From the NCBI GenBank assembly GCA_905479015.1, contig CAJQKV010000005.1:62001-126000 (forward strand): DNA of 64,000 bases, in the 5' to 3' direction. The notes under the pieces were generated by a model. That model was not told where the DNA came from. It saw nothing but the letters and a program-made list of their open reading frames with translations, and ran no database searches. Positions 29,940 through 40,012 of this stretch are shown here, piece after piece. This DNA is from an uncultured Cyclobacteriaceae bacterium (GTDB lineage: Bacteria > Bacteroidota > Bacteroidia > Cytophagales > Cyclobacteriaceae). A program made the position numbers and the translations under genes. How positions within the stretch are numbered: position 1 is the first letter of the stretch; each line of letters begins with the position of its first letter.

Positions 29940-31241
29940 TTAAAAGACCTTCAATAATTGTGGGAAAAGAATCAAAAGACCGAGAAATATAATCTGAATC
30001 ACTACAAAAGGAAGGACCCCAATATAGAGTTGTTTGGTTTTTATTTCTGGAGGAGCGACGCCTTTGAGGTAGAAGAGGGCAAACCCAAAAGGAGGGGTTA
30101 AAAAGGAGGTTTGAAGGTTAATGGCAAGTAATATGCCTATCCACACCAAATCCACACCCATGCTGGCAAATATGGGGGCAACGATCGGCACGACAATGAA
30201 TATGATCTCGATGAAGTCGATAAAAAATCCTGCAATAAAAACCAGGATCATGACCAAAATCAAAAAACCATTAGGCCCCAAATTAGATTTAGAGATCATC
30301 TCTAAGAAAAGTTTGTCTCCTTCAAGCCCTCTAAAGACCAAAGAAAAGGCCGTGGCCCCAATCAGAATCATGAAAACCATGGAGGTGAGCATGAGCGTTT
30401 CTTTGGTAACTGCCCCAAGTATTTTCTTATTCAGTTTTCCTTTATAGGCTGTGAGAATTAAAGCACCCATCGCCCCAATTCCAGCCGCTTCGGTGGGGGA
30501 AGCGATACCTCCAATAATTGTCCCCAATACCAGTATGACCAATAGCAAGGGCAATAAAAAGGACTGAATAATCTCCTTTGAAAATCCCTTATTTCGAAAA
30601 TGAGCAACTTCTTCGGGGGGCATGGCCGGTGCCTGATTTGGGTACATCTGAGCATAGATGATCACATAAATCATATACATACCAATCAGGCAAAAACCAG
30701 GTACGATGGCGGCAAGAAATAAAGCGCCTACCGAAACATTCAATACACTTGCCAGCAAGACTAACACGACAGAGGGGGGAATGATTTGTCCCAAAGTACC
30801 CGAAGCTGCGATCGTTCCCATGGCAAGGGTGGGTGCATAGCCGCGTTTGAGCATGGTCGGAAGACTTATCAAGCCCATCGTGACGACCGTAGCACCAACG
30901 ATACCTGTAGACGCTGCAAGCAAAGCACCTACTACGATCACAGACAAAGCCAAACCTCCTTTAAATTTGCCAAACAATAAGGCCATGGTCTCCAAGAGTT
31001 TTTCAGCAATGCCCGATTTTTCCAACATCATACCCATGAATACAAAGAGGGGAACCCCTAAGAGGACGAAATTCTGCATGGTACCAAAAATTCTTAAAGA
31101 GAGGAGATAGAAAAAATCAACATCAAACATCCAAACGCCTACAATAACGGCGACACCTCCTAAAGTAAAGGCAACAGGATAGCCTATAAGAATCAATATA
31201 AAAGCGACTATAAAAAAAATAATGGGCAGGTATTCGTACAT
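29940..31241 (-). CDS. dctM: TRAP transporter large permease (DctM)
   Basis: 433 residues with about 12 membrane helices, normal for DctM. It forms the Na+-driven translocation channel of a tripartite ATP-independent periplasmic transporter. Typical segments are VPLFVFMGMMLEKSGIAEKL, GASGIVGATVV-type repeats (ASTGIVGATVVTMGLISLP) and GTIGGIASPTEAAGIGAMGA. Its start overlaps the dctQ stop by one base. Substrate (usually a carboxylate or sialic acid) cannot be read from the permease. Confidence 0.93.
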   Translation of the reverse strand: MYEYLPIIFFIVAFILILIGYPVAFTLGGVAVIVGVWMFDVDFFYLLSLRIFGTMQNFVLLGVPLFVFMGMMLEKSGIAEKLLETMALLFGKFKGGLALSVIVVGALLAASTGIVGATVVTMGLISLPTMLKRGYAPTLAMGTIAASGTLGQIIPPSVVLVLLASVLNVSVGALFLAAIVPGFCLIGMYMIYVIIYAQMYPNQAPAMPPEEVAHFRNKGFSKEIIQSFLLPLLLVILVLGTIIGGIASPTEAAGIGAMGALILTAYKGKLNKKILGAVTKETLMLTSMVFMILIGATAFSLVFRGLEGDKLFLEMISKSNLGPNGFLILVMILVFIAGFFIDFIEIIFIVVPIVAPIFASMGVDLVWIGILLAINLQTSFLTPPFGFALFYLKGVAPPEIKTKQLYIGVLPFVVIQIIFLGLLILFPQLLKVF

Positions 31242-31735
31242 TATTTCAACAATATTTTTATTGAATTAAGCATGAGTACGACGCCTTGAAGCATCAATAA
31301 ACCAAAACCTACAGGAATGGCTGATTTAATTAAATATCGCGCGGGTAATCCGCCAGGATCTGGACTGGTTTCATTGAGTAAAAATGAACTTTGGACAAAA
31401 TCTATACTTGTGATCAGAGTGACCCAACAAAAAGGGATTAGGAAAATCAATGTGCCAATGAGATTGATCAGAGCCTTAGTTTTTGGACCAAAGCGTTGAT
31501 AGAAAAGATCGACACGAACATGTTTATCTTGATCCAGTGTCCAGGCAGCACCCAACAGAAACATGAGGCCAAATAGATGCCATTCTATCTCAAAAGTTGC
31601 TGCAGAGGTGATACTAAAAACATAGCGAAAGAACACATCTGTGACGATGATAAACATCAAAATGAGGGAGCTCCAAGAAATGGTTTTTCCGAGGAAACGG
31701 GTTAAATATTGGATCCCATCTATGATTGAATTCAT
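31241..31735 (-). CDS. dctQ: TRAP transporter small permease (DctQ)
   Basis: 164 residues with four membrane helices and the conserved second-helix region E-W-H-L-F-G-L-M-F-L-L-G-A-A-W-T-L. It is the scaffold partner of DctM. No DctP substrate-binding protein gene is found on either side in this window (the upstream side is a 313-base intergenic region and an unrelated rightward operon), so the binding protein must be elsewhere. Confidence 0.9.
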   Translation of the reverse strand: MNSIIDGIQYLTRFLGKTISWSSLILMFIIVTDVFFRYVFSITSAATFEIEWHLFGLMFLLGAAWTLDQDKHVRVDLFYQRFGPKTKALINLIGTLIFLIPFCWVTLITSIDFVQSSFLLNETSPDPGGLPARYLIKSAIPVGFGLLMLQGVVLMLNSIKILLK

Positions 31736-32048: not shown

Positions 32049-32789
32049 ATGAAGTTTTTTAAAGCTCTTTTTATTTTTATTCTTACTTCATTTACCACAT
32101 TGTATAATGCAATGGGACAATATAGCGTCAGTACACTGGACCTTGATGATCATGTGACAATTTGGTATGATTCGATGATCGGCCAAGAAAACATCGGATT
32201 AATTGAGGGCACTCTTTATCCTTTTCTGAACAAATCACTCCATTCACACGAATACTTCATTGAAAAAAACTGGCAGCTTGGAAGGCTTACATATAAAGGT
32301 CAAACTTTTGAAGTCAATATGTTATATAATACCTTTCACGATCTACTGCTTATTCAAAATGCAACCAATAGTTCAACTAAGATGGAACCACTGAAACTGG
32401 CTCAGTATCTTATTTCGGACTTCGAAATTGGGGACAAGATATTTAAGAGATTAGATGGAATTGAAGCACCAGAGATACCCGGATTTTATCAAGTATTGTT
32501 TGAGGCTCCAGAGATCAATATTTTGGTGAGAAGAGCCAAAAACAAAGTTATCGGCACTACGTCTGAGGGAAATTCAGGGGTTACTTATTATCCTTTGGCT
32601 TCGTATTTTTTGATGACTAAAAATCATCAAATTAAAATAAATAATAAATCTGCTTTTTTTAAAGCCTACCCTTCCCATAAACAAGAAATTAGAGACTTTA
32701 TAGGGTCTAATGGCTTATTAATTAAGCCCAATCAAGATAGAGATATTAAAAAATTGGCCATGTATTGTCATCAAATGAAGTGGGAATGA
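32049..32789 (+). CDS. Secreted protein of unknown function, first gene of TonB-receptor cassette
   Basis: 246 residues with a Sec signal peptide (MKFFKALFIFILTSFTTLYNA, cut near M-G-Q). The mature part has no lipobox and no motif I recognise. It is mixed alpha/beta with several aromatic strands and ends in a basic/amphipathic helix (PNQDRDIKKLAMYC). Its stop TGA overlaps the start of the TonB-dependent receptor (ATGA at 32786), so the proteins are made in linked amounts, and a periplasmic or surface role with the receptor is a fair inference. Function unknown. Confidence 0.7.
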   Translation: MKFFKALFIFILTSFTTLYNAMGQYSVSTLDLDDHVTIWYDSMIGQENIGLIEGTLYPFLNKSLHSHEYFIEKNWQLGRLTYKGQTFEVNMLYNTFHDLLLIQNATNSSTKMEPLKLAQYLISDFEIGDKIFKRLDGIEAPEIPGFYQVLFEAPEINILVRRAKNKVIGTTSEGNSGVTYYPLASYFLMTKNHQIKINNKSAFFKAYPSHKQEIRDFIGSNGLLIKPNQDRDIKKLAMYCHQMKWE

Positions 32790-35560
32790 TGAGAGCATTA
32801 TTTTTTGTGCTTGTTTTATTGATATCGGTCTCCTCCTACGCCCAGATTATTCCAAAATTTAATGGGAGTTATGTTAGCGCACCCTTAGAATCGATCATTC
32901 TAGACTTAGAAGAACAATTTCAAATTAAGTTTTTCTATGATCATGACTGGATTGATACCGTTCAAATCTCTGGTGATTTTATAAATACCCGATTAGATAC
33001 GGTTTTAAATAAAGTTTTCACCAATCAAAAACTAAGTTATTTCTTGAGCGGAAATCAGGTATATATTTCTTATCAGAAACCCATTATTAATCAGTTTGGA
33101 ATTGGCAAATTTTTCAATCGTGAGTCAAACTATGAACCGATTAAAAAGGGGTTGATCTTTGCCAAGGAATACCAAAAAGATCAGGAGGGGATCAATGAAT
33201 TGGAGAAGGTGTATGAGGTGGGAGATCGATATCAGTTTGTTATGGGTGAAACGGCTTCCATAGCAGGGTATGTCAGTCAGTCAGGCAATGAGTTGCCTGT
33301 TGAGGGAGCTTTTATCTATGTCGAAGAACCCTTTGTTGGTACTTCGACAGATGCCTCTGGTTTTTATACTTTAAGTATACCCACCGGCAAGCATATTTTA
33401 TTGTTGCAATCAATTGAGATGAAAAATACGTATCGGAATATTGTCGTTTTTTCTGACGGGACTTTCAATATTGATATGGAGGTAGATGTTATTGCCCTGA
33501 ATGAGGTGGTAGTCAACAGTGATCGTGATATTAATATCGAGCAGGCCCAAATGGGGGTTACTAAAATTGGAATCGAAGAAACTAAAAGTATACCTGTGCT
33601 TTTGGGTGAAAGAGACATAGTTAAGGCGGCGACGACAACTTCCGGGGTTCAGGCAGTAGGTGAGGGTGCCGCCGGGGTTAATATTAGAGGGGGTAAAGCA
33701 GATCAAAACCTTTTTACAATTGATGGAGCTACCGTCTATAATACTTCACATTTTTTTGGTTTTTTTTCTATTTTTAATTCAGAGTCTTTAGAGGGTATGG
33801 AACTATTTAAGGGAGGTATTCCCGCTAAATATGGAGGTCGTATTTCTTCGGTATTTGATATTACCACTAAGGTTCCAGATAAGGAAAAATATATTGTCAA
33901 AGGGGGTATTGGACCGGTCACTTCAAGTCTTTTATTTGAAGGCCCCCTCAGAAAAGAAAAAACTTCACTTATGATGGGAGGAAGAGCCACTTATTCTGAT
34001 TTTGTGCTCAAACAAATAAGTAATACCCCCTTAAGTAATCAGGATGCTGATTTTCATGATTTTATTCTTAAAATTGATCATAAAATTGATAAAGATAATA
34101 CCCTTTCAGCTTCGGGATATTACAGCTTTGATAGTTTTCAATTGGACTCCGATTCTCTGCTTGGCTACTCCGATTTTAGTTACACAAATGCAAATTTCTC
34201 AGTAAACTGGATGCACCAATTTAATGACGATTTAGATGGTTCATTAAGGCTTACAGGAAGCCAATATGGTTATCGTATTGGGTACGATAAGCTATTAACT
34301 CAAGCCTTTGATATTAACTATGATATTTCCGAATTAACAGCATCCACTGATTTCAACTATTATTTAGACGAAAAAAACCATTTTAACTTTGGAACTAGCA
34401 TGAAGAAATATCAGGTTAATCCTGGCGTGAGGCAGCCTCTTGGGGACTTGTCTAATATTAGCTTTGATGAAATCAATCCCGAACAGGCGCTAGAATCAGC
34501 CATTTATTTCTCTAATCAATATGATCCTACAAAAAATATTTCACTTTATGCAGGGTTAAGATATTCTTTATATACCCAGTTAGGTCCTTCTGAATCCTAT
34601 CAATATGCGCTTGATAAACCCATAAATCAGGCGTTCATTGTTGATACTCTTTCTTACGGGAAAGGTGTGCCAATGGCTACGTACCATGGTCCTGAATTAC
34701 GATTATCAGGAAGGTTTTCTCTCGCAAATTTAAGTTCTGTGAAGGTCAGTTATAACCGGTCTCGACAATATGTTCATATGCTTATTAATTCTGCCTCATT
34801 GGCACCTACTGACATTTGGAGATTGTCAGGTAAATACGTGGCACCTCAAATAGCAGATCAATTTTCAATCGGTTATTATAAAAATATCGTAGGAAATAAT
34901 GTGCTAGAGTTTTCAGTCGAGACGTATTACAAGGACATCAAAAATTTAGTTGATTTTAAAGTAGGCGCAGATTTGCAATTTAATAAGGCCATTGAAACAG
35001 ATCTTTTGCAGGGGGATGGCCGATCCTATGGGTTAGAGCTTTCCGCAAAAAAGTCTAATGGATGGTTTACAGGATGGTTTAATTATACCTGGTCACGTAG
35101 TTTTATCCGTTTAAATGGAGATTTTGCCGAGGAGCGGGTGAATGGAGGGGACTTCTTTCAGACCACTTACGATAAACCACATTATTTAAACATGGTAACG
35201 AATTATAAATTCACAAGAAGGTACAGTCTATCTTTAAACTTGGTATATTCAAGTGGTAGGCCAGTTACCTATCCTATTGGAAAATGGCAATTTAATACTG
35301 CTGAAAGTCTACAGTACTCGGAGAGAAATGCCTTCCGTATTCCTGATTATTTCAGAGTTGACCTAGGGTTTGACGTTGAGGGTTCGCACAAGGCAAAAAA
35401 ATTGGCCCATTCTTTTTGGACCTTTTCAATTTATAATCTTTTTGGCAGAGATAATGCGTATTCAATTTTCTTCAAGACGGTTGATGGAGATGTCGAGGGC
35501 TACAAAATGACGGTATTTGCGAATCCAATTCCTACGATTACCTTTAATTTTAAAATATGA
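32786..35560 (+). CDS. TonB-dependent receptor with STN and carboxypeptidase-regulatory-like domains
   Basis: 924 residues from the first of two adjacent ATGs. Order: signal peptide (RALFFVLVLLISVSSYAQ), STN domain (about 25-95; APLESIILDLEEQFQI), a linker, a carboxypeptidase-regulatory-like domain (about 155-240; SIAGYVSQSGNELPVEGA), plug (about 265-390; GVNIRGGKADQNLFTIDGA, YGGRISSVFDI), then a beta-barrel ending in ITFNFKI. Outer-membrane energy-coupled importer. An STN domain often signals to an anti-sigma factor, but none is adjacent. Unlike SusC it is not followed by SusD; instead DUF4249 and MG2-like genes follow by ATGA overlaps. Substrate unknown. Confidence 0.88.
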   Translation: MMRALFFVLVLLISVSSYAQIIPKFNGSYVSAPLESIILDLEEQFQIKFFYDHDWIDTVQISGDFINTRLDTVLNKVFTNQKLSYFLSGNQVYISYQKPIINQFGIGKFFNRESNYEPIKKGLIFAKEYQKDQEGINELEKVYEVGDRYQFVMGETASIAGYVSQSGNELPVEGAFIYVEEPFVGTSTDASGFYTLSIPTGKHILLLQSIEMKNTYRNIVVFSDGTFNIDMEVDVIALNEVVVNSDRDINIEQAQMGVTKIGIEETKSIPVLLGERDIVKAATTTSGVQAVGEGAAGVNIRGGKADQNLFTIDGATVYNTSHFFGFFSIFNSESLEGMELFKGGIPAKYGGRISSVFDITTKVPDKEKYIVKGGIGPVTSSLLFEGPLRKEKTSLMMGGRATYSDFVLKQISNTPLSNQDADFHDFILKIDHKIDKDNTLSASGYYSFDSFQLDSDSLLGYSDFSYTNANFSVNWMHQFNDDLDGSLRLTGSQYGYRIGYDKLLTQAFDINYDISELTASTDFNYYLDEKNHFNFGTSMKKYQVNPGVRQPLGDLSNISFDEINPEQALESAIYFSNQYDPTKNISLYAGLRYSLYTQLGPSESYQYALDKPINQAFIVDTLSYGKGVPMATYHGPELRLSGRFSLANLSSVKVSYNRSRQYVHMLINSASLAPTDIWRLSGKYVAPQIADQFSIGYYKNIVGNNVLEFSVETYYKDIKNLVDFKVGADLQFNKAIETDLLQGDGRSYGLELSAKKSNGWFTGWFNYTWSRSFIRLNGDFAEERVNGGDFFQTTYDKPHYLNMVTNYKFTRRYSLSLNLVYSSGRPVTYPIGKWQFNTAESLQYSERNAFRIPDYFRVDLGFDVEGSHKAKKLAHSFWTFSIYNLFGRDNAYSIFFKTVDGDVEGYKMTVFANPIPTITFNFKI

Positions 35561-36759
35561 GCAGGAGTAAAAAAAACATAGTTTATTTATTTCTTTCAAT
35601 CATAGTCCTTTCTTGTATAGAACCCTATGAGCATAATTTCATTGGGGAGACTGAAAATTCTTTGTTGGTAGTGGATGCCATTTTGACTAACGAAATAAAA
35701 ACACATACCGTAAAATTATCCTATACATCTTCTTTAGAATCTGAAGACCTTATCTTGGCTAAGGGAGCCACAGTGACCATTGAATCAGAGAATGGTGAGA
35801 TTGTCAATTTAACAGAATCGCTACCCGGCAACTACGTTACTGACTCAACATATGCAGGAATGATTGGAGAAAGTTATATGCTCAGAGTCATCACAGAAAA
35901 TGGCAATGAATACTTATCTACCAAAGAGACGTTGAATGAAGCCCCACCTATTGACAGTTTATACGGTCGATATGTTCAATTACCGTCAAAAGAGAGTGGA
36001 GATATTTTGAATGGGGTTCAAATATTTTTAGTGACCGATTGGCAAAATTACGAAGTCAGTACTTTTAGGTATACCTGGGAGGAGACTTACGAATGGAGAG
36101 TTCCCTATCCCTCATATTATTTATGGGATGAAACATCTGAAAAATTAATCCTTAGAACACAAAGTGTAGATAAATGTTTCAGACAAGAGACCAGCAGTTC
36201 CTTAATAATGGGATCTGGAATCGCGTTAAATAATCAAAAATTAACTGAATTCCCTGTTCATTTTATCAATGAAGCAGATCCAAATTTAGCCTATAAAACA
36301 GCCGTTCGTGTAAAGCAATATGCTTTGTCTGCATCTACTTATCAGTTTTATAAAAGATTGCAGGATAATAATGAATCCGGAGGCTCACTTTTTGATAAAC
36401 AAAAAGGAAATATTGTGGGCAACATGGAGGTGTTGACGGGTCCTCGAGAATTGGTATTGGGAAATTTTGAAGTTTCCGGGGTATCGTCAAAATTAGTATT
36501 CTTTGTGCCTAAAACTTTTGTACCCGATGGGTTCAATATTCCGTTATTAAATGCTCAATGTAATTTAATTTACAGGACGTCTGCAGATTCTATTCCAACA
36601 TCAGGGTTAGCGGATTATTTTAGCTCAAGCGAGTCGGCGGGAAAAGGGATATGGGCCTTTTTTATGCCGGAGCCTCCGGGATTTTACGTAATACTTTCTG
36701 AGCCTTGTACGGACTGTAGGATTAATGGGGATATAGAAATACCCACTTTTTGGGAATGA
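35557..36759 (+). CDS. DUF4249 family lipoprotein
   Basis: 400 residues. Lipoprotein signal with lipobox IVLSC (Cys20) followed by IEPYE, the start typical for DUF4249. The N-terminal part is a beta-sandwich (VVDAILTNEIKTHTVKLSYT), followed by a larger domain with a conserved-looking W-E-E-T-Y-E-W and two C-terminal cysteines (EPCTDCRINGD). DUF4249 proteins are commonly encoded next to TonB-dependent receptors and probably sit on the cell surface, but their role is not known. ATGA overlaps at both ends tie it to the receptor and to the MG2-like gene. Confidence 0.85.
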   Translation: MSRSKKNIVYLFLSIIVLSCIEPYEHNFIGETENSLLVVDAILTNEIKTHTVKLSYTSSLESEDLILAKGATVTIESENGEIVNLTESLPGNYVTDSTYAGMIGESYMLRVITENGNEYLSTKETLNEAPPIDSLYGRYVQLPSKESGDILNGVQIFLVTDWQNYEVSTFRYTWEETYEWRVPYPSYYLWDETSEKLILRTQSVDKCFRQETSSSLIMGSGIALNNQKLTEFPVHFINEADPNLAYKTAVRVKQYALSASTYQFYKRLQDNNESGGSLFDKQKGNIVGNMEVLTGPRELVLGNFEVSGVSSKLVFFVPKTFVPDGFNIPLLNAQCNLIYRTSADSIPTSGLADYFSSSESAGKGIWAFFMPEPPGFYVILSEPCTDCRINGDIEIPTFWE

Positions 36760-38954
36760 ATAGGTTAAGATATTTAACAATCTGTAGTTTAATTCTTTTT
36801 CATTTTGCAGGAAATGGTCAAGACAATATTCACGAGGAGGTTTTTTTACAAATCAGTAGCGATCGATTCGTTTCAGGTGAACGCATCCTGTTTCATGCGT
36901 TGGTTAGAAGTAAGTCTTCAGGAAAGCTTTCGGAGCTAAGTTCGATTCTATATGTTGAGTTGTTGGATGACCAACAAATCCCAGTTTTTCAGACAAAAAT
37001 AAAACTTGAAAAGGGCCAAGGTACTGGAGATTTTTTTATTTCCAGTTTGATTGAATCCGGAAATTATCAACTTATAGGATACACGCGTTGGATGAAAAAT
37101 TTTGGCGATTATTACCGCATTCCCATCACAATCTATAATCCATTTGAGGAATATATGGTAACCCCTGCAGGAGCACCAAAAATGGAATTTTATCCAGAAA
37201 GCGGAAATCTAGTGGCAGGATTCAAAAACAAAGTATTGCTTCGTTATGCCAACGAACAAGGAGTAGGGATAGATTTAAAAGGCAGAATTGTAGACCCCGA
37301 GGGGAATACCTTATCAACTATCGAATCTACAGAGGGGATGGCTAAATTTTATTTAAGCCCACTGGCTAACACGCAATACAGGATGATCTATGAAGATTCT
37401 TCGATGAATTTTAATTTTATAAATCTGCCTATGGCCTGTCAAGCATGCGCAAGTATTTCTCTAACCGAATTTTCTCAGCGTTTTGTTTTGAAAGTTAACG
37501 ATAATGTGAAACATGAAAAAAGTGGGATTTTAAAAATTAGGGATCGTTATAAGATTTATTTCGAAGGTGATTTAGAGGTTGGCCAATTGCTCAATATGGA
37601 TAAAAAGTCAATGCCAGAAGGCTTACTAAGAGTAGAATATTTTGATGCTCAAGGTGAAATGAAGGCCCATAGATTATTTTATAATGGGCCAATAGCAGTC
37701 ATTAAAAGCGAAATAATAAAGACGAAGTCAAGGAATTTTGTGGAATTAGCTGATTTAAATCAATCAATCACTTCAGTCTCAATCGTAGTGAGATCTTATG
37801 AATCAGCTTCAAGATCTGCTGTTATTTCCCAAATCAATAGCCAGTTAGTTACTCGCCCACTGAGATCTGATTTTGTCAGTCAGACGAATTTAGACGACTG
37901 GATGATCCTTTCAAAGGTAAGTTGGCCTGAATGGGAACCCATTGATCAAGTGGCGATGATGCCAGAGCATCGTAATGATTTAATAGAGGGAATTATAACC
38001 TCCAGAGAGGAGGATGTTTTTGAAAAGATCATTGTATTTTCTATTCCAGGCAAGACATATGATATAAACTTGGCTCAGACAGATGTGAACGGTAAGTTTT
38101 TGCTCAATATTGAACAGGATATGGCTGGCGATAATAACGGTTATATCAACGTATTAGATTATGATGGGGGTGAGTATGAAATAATCATGAATTCTGAATT
38201 TTACACTGAATACCCAAATTTTGAAAATTGGCCCATTCGCTATGATTCTCTTACCGTTACACAAGTGATCAAATCAAGTGTTGGGATACAAATTGAGAAT
38301 TCTTTTCAACATTTACGCAGAGATAGTATCGTGATGGGGAAAAAGGAGCATTTTAAAATATTGAATGTCAAAAATTATCACCTCGATGATTTCACGAGAT
38401 TCCCAACGATGAGAGACTCATTTATTGAATATATACCAGGAATTGCCATTGGTAAATCAAGAACTGATTATGATTTTAATATTCGCTGGCCAGCAGAATT
38501 GAGTGCTTTCAAGCAAACAGGGATCTATTTGGTGCTTTTTGATGGGATTTTGGCCAGTCCCAAAGAAGTACTTGAATATTCTCCTTATAATATCAGCGAT
38601 ATAGAAGTACTTAGTGAGCGATACTATATTGGGTCAGCGGTTTTAGACGGAATTATAGCCCTTAAAACCAAAGAAGGTGACCTTTATGGGTTTGAACCCA
38701 AAGGGCTGAAATATAAATACAAGGGGCTCCAGCGTCAAAAAATTTATTTCTTTCCGGATCATACTCAGTCAAAAGAATTAAGGATTCCTGACCAACGAAA
38801 GATCTTGGCTTGGCAGTTTATGGATCAAATCCAGCCAAGTCAAAAAATGGGATTTTATGCTTCTGATGTTTTGGGCACGTTTGATGTGCTAATTACTGGG
38901 ATCTCGCCTTCTGGGGAATTGATTCAGGAGATCCGCACGTTAGTGGTAGAATAA
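36756..38954 (+). CDS. MG2-like secreted protein with plug-like C-terminal domain
   Basis: 732 residues from the ATG at 36756. Signal peptide MNRLRYLTICSLILFHFAGNG. The N-terminal part starts with FLQISSDRFVSGERILFHA, typical of the alpha-2-macroglobulin MG2 fold, and is followed by several beta-sandwich segments (M-E-F-Y-P-E-S-G-N-L-V-A-G). Near the C-terminus (about 588-645) the segment LVLFDGILAS ... NISDIEVLSERYYIGSAVLD-G-I-I-A-L-K-T-K-E-G has the shape of a TonB-receptor plug (D-G ... D-I-E-x-I-E-V-L ... G-V-I-x-I-x-T-K-x-G). No barrel follows. Last gene of the coupled cassette. Likely periplasmic or outer-membrane-associated; function unknown. Confidence 0.75.
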   Translation: MNRLRYLTICSLILFHFAGNGQDNIHEEVFLQISSDRFVSGERILFHALVRSKSSGKLSELSSILYVELLDDQQIPVFQTKIKLEKGQGTGDFFISSLIESGNYQLIGYTRWMKNFGDYYRIPITIYNPFEEYMVTPAGAPKMEFYPESGNLVAGFKNKVLLRYANEQGVGIDLKGRIVDPEGNTLSTIESTEGMAKFYLSPLANTQYRMIYEDSSMNFNFINLPMACQACASISLTEFSQRFVLKVNDNVKHEKSGILKIRDRYKIYFEGDLEVGQLLNMDKKSMPEGLLRVEYFDAQGEMKAHRLFYNGPIAVIKSEIIKTKSRNFVELADLNQSITSVSIVVRSYESASRSAVISQINSQLVTRPLRSDFVSQTNLDDWMILSKVSWPEWEPIDQVAMMPEHRNDLIEGIITSREEDVFEKIIVFSIPGKTYDINLAQTDVNGKFLLNIEQDMAGDNNGYINVLDYDGGEYEIIMNSEFYTEYPNFENWPIRYDSLTVTQVIKSSVGIQIENSFQHLRRDSIVMGKKEHFKILNVKNYHLDDFTRFPTMRDSFIEYIPGIAIGKSRTDYDFNIRWPAELSAFKQTGIYLVLFDGILASPKEVLEYSPYNISDIEVLSERYYIGSAVLDGIIALKTKEGDLYGFEPKGLKYKYKGLQRQKIYFFPDHTQSKELRIPDQRKILAWQFMDQIQPSQKMGFYASDVLGTFDVLITGISPSGELIQEIRTLVVE

Positions 38955-38980: not shown

Positions 38981-40012
38981 ATGAAGCAAGACGTTCGTAA
39001 GTTGACATTCGATAAATTGAAAGATTACGTATTGGAAACAGGATTACCTGCATTTCGTGCGAAACAAATTTGGGAATGGATATGGGTCAAGTCGGCACAT
39101 AATTTTGATGAAATGTCCAATCTCTCCCTGACGATGCGCGCTCAATTGGCCAAAGATTTTGATATTTTGCCGATCTCAGTGCAGACCGATCAAAAGTCGA
39201 ATGATGGAACTATAAAACTAGCATTTGCACTTCATGACAAATCCTTAGTGGAGGGGGTGTTGATTCCGGCTGAGGATCGAATGACGGCCTGTGTATCCTC
39301 TCAAGTAGGTTGTTCGCTAAGTTGTAAATTTTGTGCTACGGGTTATATGGATCGTAAGCGAAATTTGGATCCAGCGGAGATTTATGACCAAGTAGTGGAA
39401 ATAGACAAGCAAGCCAAAAGGCATTTTGATGTACCCCTAAGCAATATTGTTTTTATGGGGATGGGAGAACCTTTACTCAATTATAAGAATGTATTACAGA
39501 GCATTGAGCGGATTACTGCTACAGATGGACTCAATATGTCGCCCAAGCGCATCACGGTATCCACTGCAGGTATTGCCAAGATGATCATCAAGCTGGCTGA
39601 CGATCAAGTCAAATTCAACTTGGCCTTGTCTCTGCATGCGGCCAATGACGTAAAAAGGAATCAAATCATGCCTATCAATGAAACCAATACTTTGAAAGTA
39701 CTGAAGGAAGCATTGCTTTATTTTTATCAAAAAACAGGAAATCAAATTACTTTTGAATACATAGTTTTTGATAATTTTAATGACCGAATTGAGGATGCAG
39801 AGGAGTTATGGCATTTTGCTAAATCAATACCTTCCAAAATTAATATTATTGAATACAATCCGATTGCTGAGGCTCAATATCAAAATACAACTGCTGACAA
39901 GTTGGAGCAATTTGCAGATTTTTTGAAGTCCAAGAAACTCACTGTCAATATACGAAGGAGTCGAGGTAAAGATATTGATGCGGCCTGTGGACAGCTGGCC
40001 AATAAAAATTAA
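38981..40012 (+). CDS. rlmN: Dual-specificity 23S rRNA A2503 / tRNA A37 C2-methyltransferase
   Basis: 343 residues. Radical-SAM enzyme making 2-methyladenosine at 23S rRNA A2503 and at A37 of some tRNAs. The cluster motif CKFCATG (C-x3-C-x2-C, in SLSCKFCATGY) is present, as are SSQVGCSLSC, the MGMGEPLLNY segment, ALSLHA, and the C-terminal catalytic cysteine in DIDAACGQL. Followed by a convergent rhomboid gene two bases away. Confidence 0.95.
   Translation: MKQDVRKLTFDKLKDYVLETGLPAFRAKQIWEWIWVKSAHNFDEMSNLSLTMRAQLAKDFDILPISVQTDQKSNDGTIKLAFALHDKSLVEGVLIPAEDRMTACVSSQVGCSLSCKFCATGYMDRKRNLDPAEIYDQVVEIDKQAKRHFDVPLSNIVFMGMGEPLLNYKNVLQSIERITATDGLNMSPKRITVSTAGIAKMIIKLADDQVKFNLALSLHAANDVKRNQIMPINETNTLKVLKEALLYFYQKTGNQITFEYIVFDNFNDRIEDAEELWHFAKSIPSKINIIEYNPIAEAQYQNTTADKLEQFADFLKSKKLTVNIRRSRGKDIDAACGQLANKN

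Follow-up and report, generated by a model that had tools for sequence, protein, structure and literature searches.

A conserved four-gene operon of Bacteroidota elaborates the pairing of a TonB-dependent receptor with a DUF4249 lipoprotein

We analysed a stretch of 64,000 nucleotides (hereafter, the window) from the 2.93 Mb genome of an uncultured Cyclobacteriaceae bacterium. ORF calling in the window confirmed four plus-strand ORFs on contig 5, designated here g1 to g4 (Table 1), which together form an envelope cassette without a degradative enzyme or an inner-membrane importer among its genes. The cassette is flanked by divergently transcribed TRAP-transporter-like genes (29940-31735) on one side and by rlmN (38981-40012), starting 26 nt downstream of g4, on the other. 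Both rlmN and the upstream TRAP-type genes adjoin the cassette only in the window's genus and in genome G016, and this neighbourhood is likely fortuitous. A search for Rfam families and riboswitches as a clue to the cargo gave none in the window or at eight homologous loci. The Bacteroidetes-type promoter pattern matched four times in the window, which is the chance level, and never upstream of the cassette.

Table 1. Features of the four-gene cassette; positions are those of the window.
Feature	Position	Strand	Description
g1	32049..32789	+	246 aa, Sec-exported; all-beta core and C-terminal helices; no database match
g2	32786..35560	+	TonB-dependent receptor, 924 aa from ATG 32786: signal peptide, STN-like, CarboxypepD-like, plug, barrel (predicted)
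g2 STN/FecR_C-like domain	32876..33073	+	aa 31-96; Pfam
g2 CarbopepD_reg_2	33260..33514	+	aa 159-243; Pfam
g2 Plug	33608..33841	+	aa 275-352; Pfam
g3	35557..36759	+	DUF4249 lipoprotein, 400 aa, lipobox cysteine at residue 20; Pfam
g3 CxDC motif	36706..36717	+	C384-C387, C-terminal tail; mark of quartet-type DUF4249
g4	36756..38954	+	732 aa, Sec-exported; macroglobulin-like domain string, then CarboxypepD-like and putative plug-like domains, no barrel
g4 MG2-like domain	36831..37100	+	about aa 26-115; Pfam matches in the family, PDB profile match to complement C3 / A2M MG2
g4 barrel-less plug-like domain (putative)	38418..38690	+	about aa 555-645; Plug matches in orthologues and solo paralogues

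The earlier note on this DNA had described the four ORFs as joined by three ATGA overlaps, and the ORF calls and the junction sequences agree with it: ATGA is present at every junction, with the downstream ATG at 32786, 35557 and 36756. The g1/g2 junction reads ATGATGA, and the g2 start could equally be the second ATG at 32789, leaving a 1-nt overlap. The strict translational coupling that had been read from these overlaps did not survive comparison with relatives, where ATGA-type overlaps were found at only 29/90, 22/132 and 15/93 of the homologous junctions (in gene order). Since overlaps of −4 and −1 make up eight of the 35 same-strand junctions in the window (three of the eight within the cassette) and are not conserved in relatives, they are not by themselves beyond chance, and we discarded them as a sign of fixed stoichiometry. 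Moreover, the DUF4249 gene is doubled in some loci and present in six tandem copies at one of them (L069), which argues against a fixed 1:1:1:1 ratio. What is kept is proximity, the gap lying within 60 nt at 84/90, 129/132 and 88/93 of the junctions. The four genes are thus packed closely into one operon, but translational coupling between them is not conserved.

The gene order was compared at 103 homologous loci from Cytophagales, Flavobacteriaceae, Chitinophagaceae, Sphingobacteriaceae and Bacteroidales, a sample picked by similarity to an STN-bearing receptor, so that its counts are not prevalence figures. The receptor gene was accompanied by g1, located upstream of it, in 87 loci, by a DUF4249 gene in 101 and by g4 in 94; in the window g3 lies directly beside g2, as in a receptor-DUF4249 system. 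Other neighbour families occurred in at most six of the 103 loci each, and those six belong to the window's genus and one relative. A receptor-profile search in which a single genome represented each species returned 80 named loci, in Reichenbachiella, Hymenobacter, Rufibacter, Dyadobacter, Algoriphagus, Cyclobacterium, Mucilaginibacter, Ferruginibacter, Niabella, Algibacter, Cellulophaga, Tenacibaculum, Parabacteroides, Draconibacterium, Ancylomarina and other genera. The exact order g1-g2-g3-g4 was found in 49 of the 80 and, with tandem DUF4249 genes, in six more; several of the remaining loci are interrupted by contig ends. Searches of relatives with the g4 and g1 profiles gave matches in 68/98 and 66/98, respectively, and the neighbourhoods retrieved with g4 again show the g1-g2-g3-g4 order. 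Such a grouping is thus far beyond chance, and its persistence throughout the phylum while the flanks change indicates a functional unit. The earlier note had proposed to ask whether the order is kept across Cytophagales; it is kept there and well beyond, and in this receptor subfamily the homologues are not usually found apart. No earlier description of the four-gene operon was found in the literature searched, and it is apparently undescribed so far.

The g2 protein gave Pfam matches to FecR_C (5.4e-6), CarbopepD_reg_2 (2.5e-12) and Plug (2e-9). Its STN match (0.012) is below the Pfam cut-off, and the N-terminus scores best to FecR_C/STN. With a Plug match above the cut-off and a C-terminal barrel region conserved in a 22-member alignment, g2 belongs to the TonB-dependent receptors, the barrel itself being predicted from length and homology and not from a Pfam barrel match. 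A TonB-box-like stretch, LNEVVV, precedes the plug.

To see this receptor among its relatives, we used a second sample of 40 stretches from across the phylum, anchored on DUF4249. The majority form there pairs an STN-less receptor of 750-870 aa with a downstream DUF4249 protein of 270-330 aa and has neither g1 nor g4; only two of the 40 are quartets. Two such simple pairs (L229 and L230) are present in the window's own genome. In the pooled data, g1 and/or g4 were nearby in 96 of 99 loci with STN-bearing receptors and neither was present in 35 of 38 with STN-less ones. The three STN-bearing receptors without g1 and g4 count against the explanation we prefer below; the three exceptions to the pattern are L038 (at a contig edge), L035 (a broken copy) and L143. 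In a receptor tree, nearly all STN-bearing receptors fall on one side, with 8/137 misplaced and a split support of only 0.49. Because these receptors form nearly one clade, the association of STN with g1 and g4 may reflect a single inherited event, and we consider it mostly one inherited architecture; the same tree weakens its reading as independent co-gain. The receptors of L230 (contig 22 of the window genome) and L144 fall among the STN-bearing ones, although both are pairs without STN, g1 and g4; their DUF4249 proteins have a CxxC tail, and these pairs may be intermediates or losses.

The g3 product matched DUF4249 (1.9e-33) and no other Pfam family, and a PDB sequence search returned weak matches only (best 0.0074). 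A lipobox-like signal is present in 107/122 long DUF4249 relatives. The quartet-type proteins are longer than those of simple pairs (median 386 vs. 288 aa) and end in CxDC...PxFW, the CxDC tail being found in 113 of 123 quartet proteins vs. 1 of 42 from simple pairs. This tail and the C-terminal plug-like domain of g4 are two features that the earlier note had missed. Four cysteines of the mature g3 protein, C207, C335, C384 and C387, are invariant in 27 aligned long DUF4249 sequences and may form two disulfides or a metal site.

For g4 of the window alone there was no significant Pfam match, and its earlier label as MG2-like holds through the family and the fold. MG2 was matched in 19/26 relatives (best 3.1e-9), CarboxypepD_reg in 6/26 and Plug in 3/26 (best 3.5e-4). 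A Foldseek search with the g4 model (pLDDT 79.6) retrieved complement C4b (E 9e-15) and bacterial A2M and relatives (range to 2e-10), with TM-scores of only 0.1-0.27, as expected of flexible domain strings. The E. coli (4rtd/4ziq) and Salmonella (4u48) A2M structures and complement C3/C4 thus share a chain of macroglobulin domains with the model. Unlike them, g4 is half their size, has no CGEQ thioester motif and no thioester or receptor-binding domains, and bears a C-terminal, barrel-less plug-like domain, so it is not A2M proper. This plug-like domain is followed by a final beta domain, and the protein ends at 732 aa. The profile match of g4 to the g2 plug is weak (55%), and we assign the domain in the window protein with moderate confidence. 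The solo MG2-Plug paralogues (L057, L059, L061, L062, L068) have the same MG2-to-plug layout, with Plug matches up to 4e-16; they are encoded away from such a receptor and DUF4249, and in several of them the plug is better preserved than in g4. Members of this solo family are widespread, several with a clear TonB plug and no barrel. A literature search for a combination of MG2 and TonB found nothing relevant.

The remaining protein, g1, belongs to a family in which 58 relatives align, and its AlphaFold model is of high quality (pLDDT 88). No match was found in Pfam, NCBIfam or PHROGs, no PDB sequence at E<=1, no fold in PDB or in the viral BFVD set at E<=0.001, and no profile match to the g2 STN domain or to g4. 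More distant g1-like proteins occur also outside quartets. By a simple rule, a lipobox-like signal was found in 13/90 relatives of g1 and 8/107 of g4, and type-I-like signals predominate in both families.

Taken together, these data allow us to conclude that the quartet is an elaborated form of the known receptor-DUF4249 pair, to which an STN domain, a longer CxDC-tailed DUF4249, g1 and g4 have been added. We give an even chance to the reading we prefer, namely that the four products make up one TonB-energised outer-membrane uptake complex. The g2 barrel would serve as the channel, and g3 would be a surface lipoprotein that caps it or captures cargo, SusD-like in function though from a different sequence family. 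A TonB-driven importer with a DUF4249 surface partner is suggested by the receptor layout (plug, barrel, LNEVVV) and by Bacteroides thetaiotaomicron BT2172-BT2173, a receptor and DUF4249 protein from a conserved operon whose disruption in either gene has similar consequences (PMC11003636). The two exported proteins, g1 and g4, would be soluble partners of STN-bearing receptors, probably on the periplasmic side and acting through STN. The STN domain of known receptors faces the periplasm, and since g1 and g4 come together with it, we infer that one or both may dock there. The macroglobulin-like string of g4, ending in its putative barrel-less plug-like domain, might receive or hold a large, peptide or protein-like cargo. 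Against this reading, the cassette offers no degradative enzyme, inner-membrane importer or riboswitch that would point to a nutrient.

The core of this arrangement is not new: in BT2172-BT2173, too, a TonB-dependent receptor directly precedes a DUF4249 lipoprotein in a conserved operon (PMC11003636), so of the earlier proposal of a distinct machine only the elaboration by g1, g4, STN and the CxDC tail stands. Most pairs in our sample (a comparison with the sample and not with BT2172-BT2173 itself) lack STN, g1 and g4, and their DUF4249 is about 100 aa shorter, without a CxDC tail. The quartet could be an ordinary uptake pair in which g1 and g4 are co-transcribed passengers, sharing regulation but no complex and acting elsewhere in the envelope; most DUF4249 loci do without them, and relatives of both exist alone elsewhere. 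We find this rather improbable, as g1 and g4 hold their position in different families and orders even where the surroundings change, and their presence tracks the STN domain of the receptor and the CxDC tail of its DUF4249 partner.

The absence of SusD and of a sigma/anti-sigma pair from the cassette, which the earlier note had taken to exclude a standard polysaccharide import locus and a Fec-type system, was confirmed, and with it the exclusion. As a functional analogy, SusCD and RagAB likewise combine a TonB-dependent barrel with an adjacent surface lipoprotein, but g3 is DUF4249 and not SusD_RagB, g1 and g4 are extra, and linked genes for glycan or peptide catabolism do not recur beside the quartet. 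The genome has six SusD_RagB genes, all located elsewhere. Fec-type systems combine an STN-bearing receptor with FecR and an ECF sigma factor; g2 has the STN-like N-terminal domain, whereas the cassette has neither a FecR nor a sigma gene, and the three FecR matches of the genome are on contigs 21, 22 and 26.

The STN domain, which is the signalling domain of Fec-type receptors, nevertheless leaves room for a signalling receptor in which g1, g4 or both would take the place of FecR as the periplasmic partner and receive a ligand signal relayed by STN, transport being secondary. The co-occurrence of STN with g1 and g4 and the FecR_C/STN match at the g2 N-terminus would fit such a relay. We regard it as quite unlikely: both g1 and g4 lack a transmembrane anchor and a cytoplasmic sigma-binding part, the genome has separate FecR genes, and sigma factors are not a widespread neighbour of the cassette, with a single sigma-like family present at 5/103 loci only.

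A surface-assembly or export machine, where the g2 barrel and the macroglobulin-like g4 would handle proteins or lipoproteins bound for the cell surface instead of importing cargo, appears unlikely. It would accord with the resemblance of g4 to a protein-handling macroglobulin chain, with the lack of linked catabolic genes or of any widely recurring neighbour family outside the quartet, and with the surface complexes that Bacteroidota build with unusual subunits (PMC12611786). Against it, the normal plug and TonB-box-like stretch of g2 are the layout of an energised importer, and the cassette is not universal, since no more than 68 (g4 profile) and 66 (g1 profile) of 98 relatives gave a match. 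The described BAM subunits of Bacteroidota are also different proteins: BamG is FadL-like, BamH and BamM are surface lipoproteins and BamP is periplasmic. We thus ruled out that the quartet proteins are BAM accessory subunits.

A bolder form of the preferred uptake complex, which we offer as tentative and on the whole doubtful, is a trans-envelope machine for protein or peptide uptake, in which the plug-bearing, macroglobulin-like g4 would be the periplasmic receiver working with the STN receptor, and g1 its STN-docking partner of an unseen fold. If true, Bacteroidota would have, besides SusCD, a second way of importing large cargo. TonB receptors paired with a DUF4249 protein occur widely in this phylum and are scarcely treated in the literature searched, and the quartet offers a clean within-family comparison of receptors with and without STN, g1 and g4. 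It makes testable the role of STN without FecR, as well as the question of why Bacteroidota make plug-bearing, barrel-less macroglobulin-like proteins.

Several individual loci deserve mention. In one genus relative (G003, locus L035), frame breaks split both g1 and g4, and the N-terminus of g2 is missing; in another (G004, L033), g2 is read in two pieces; these broken genes reflect decay or assembly error. Contig 9 of genome G003 also carries additional copies of g1, one of which contains internal stops. Locus L068 (2838-16744) encodes four MG2-Plug-type proteins without a barrel in a tandem region, two of them followed by a CarboxypepD_reg-type secreted protein. At L069 (343-11906, genome G037), the six tandem DUF4249 genes come after a single STN receptor and a short g4, which suggests exchangeable surface partners for one receptor.
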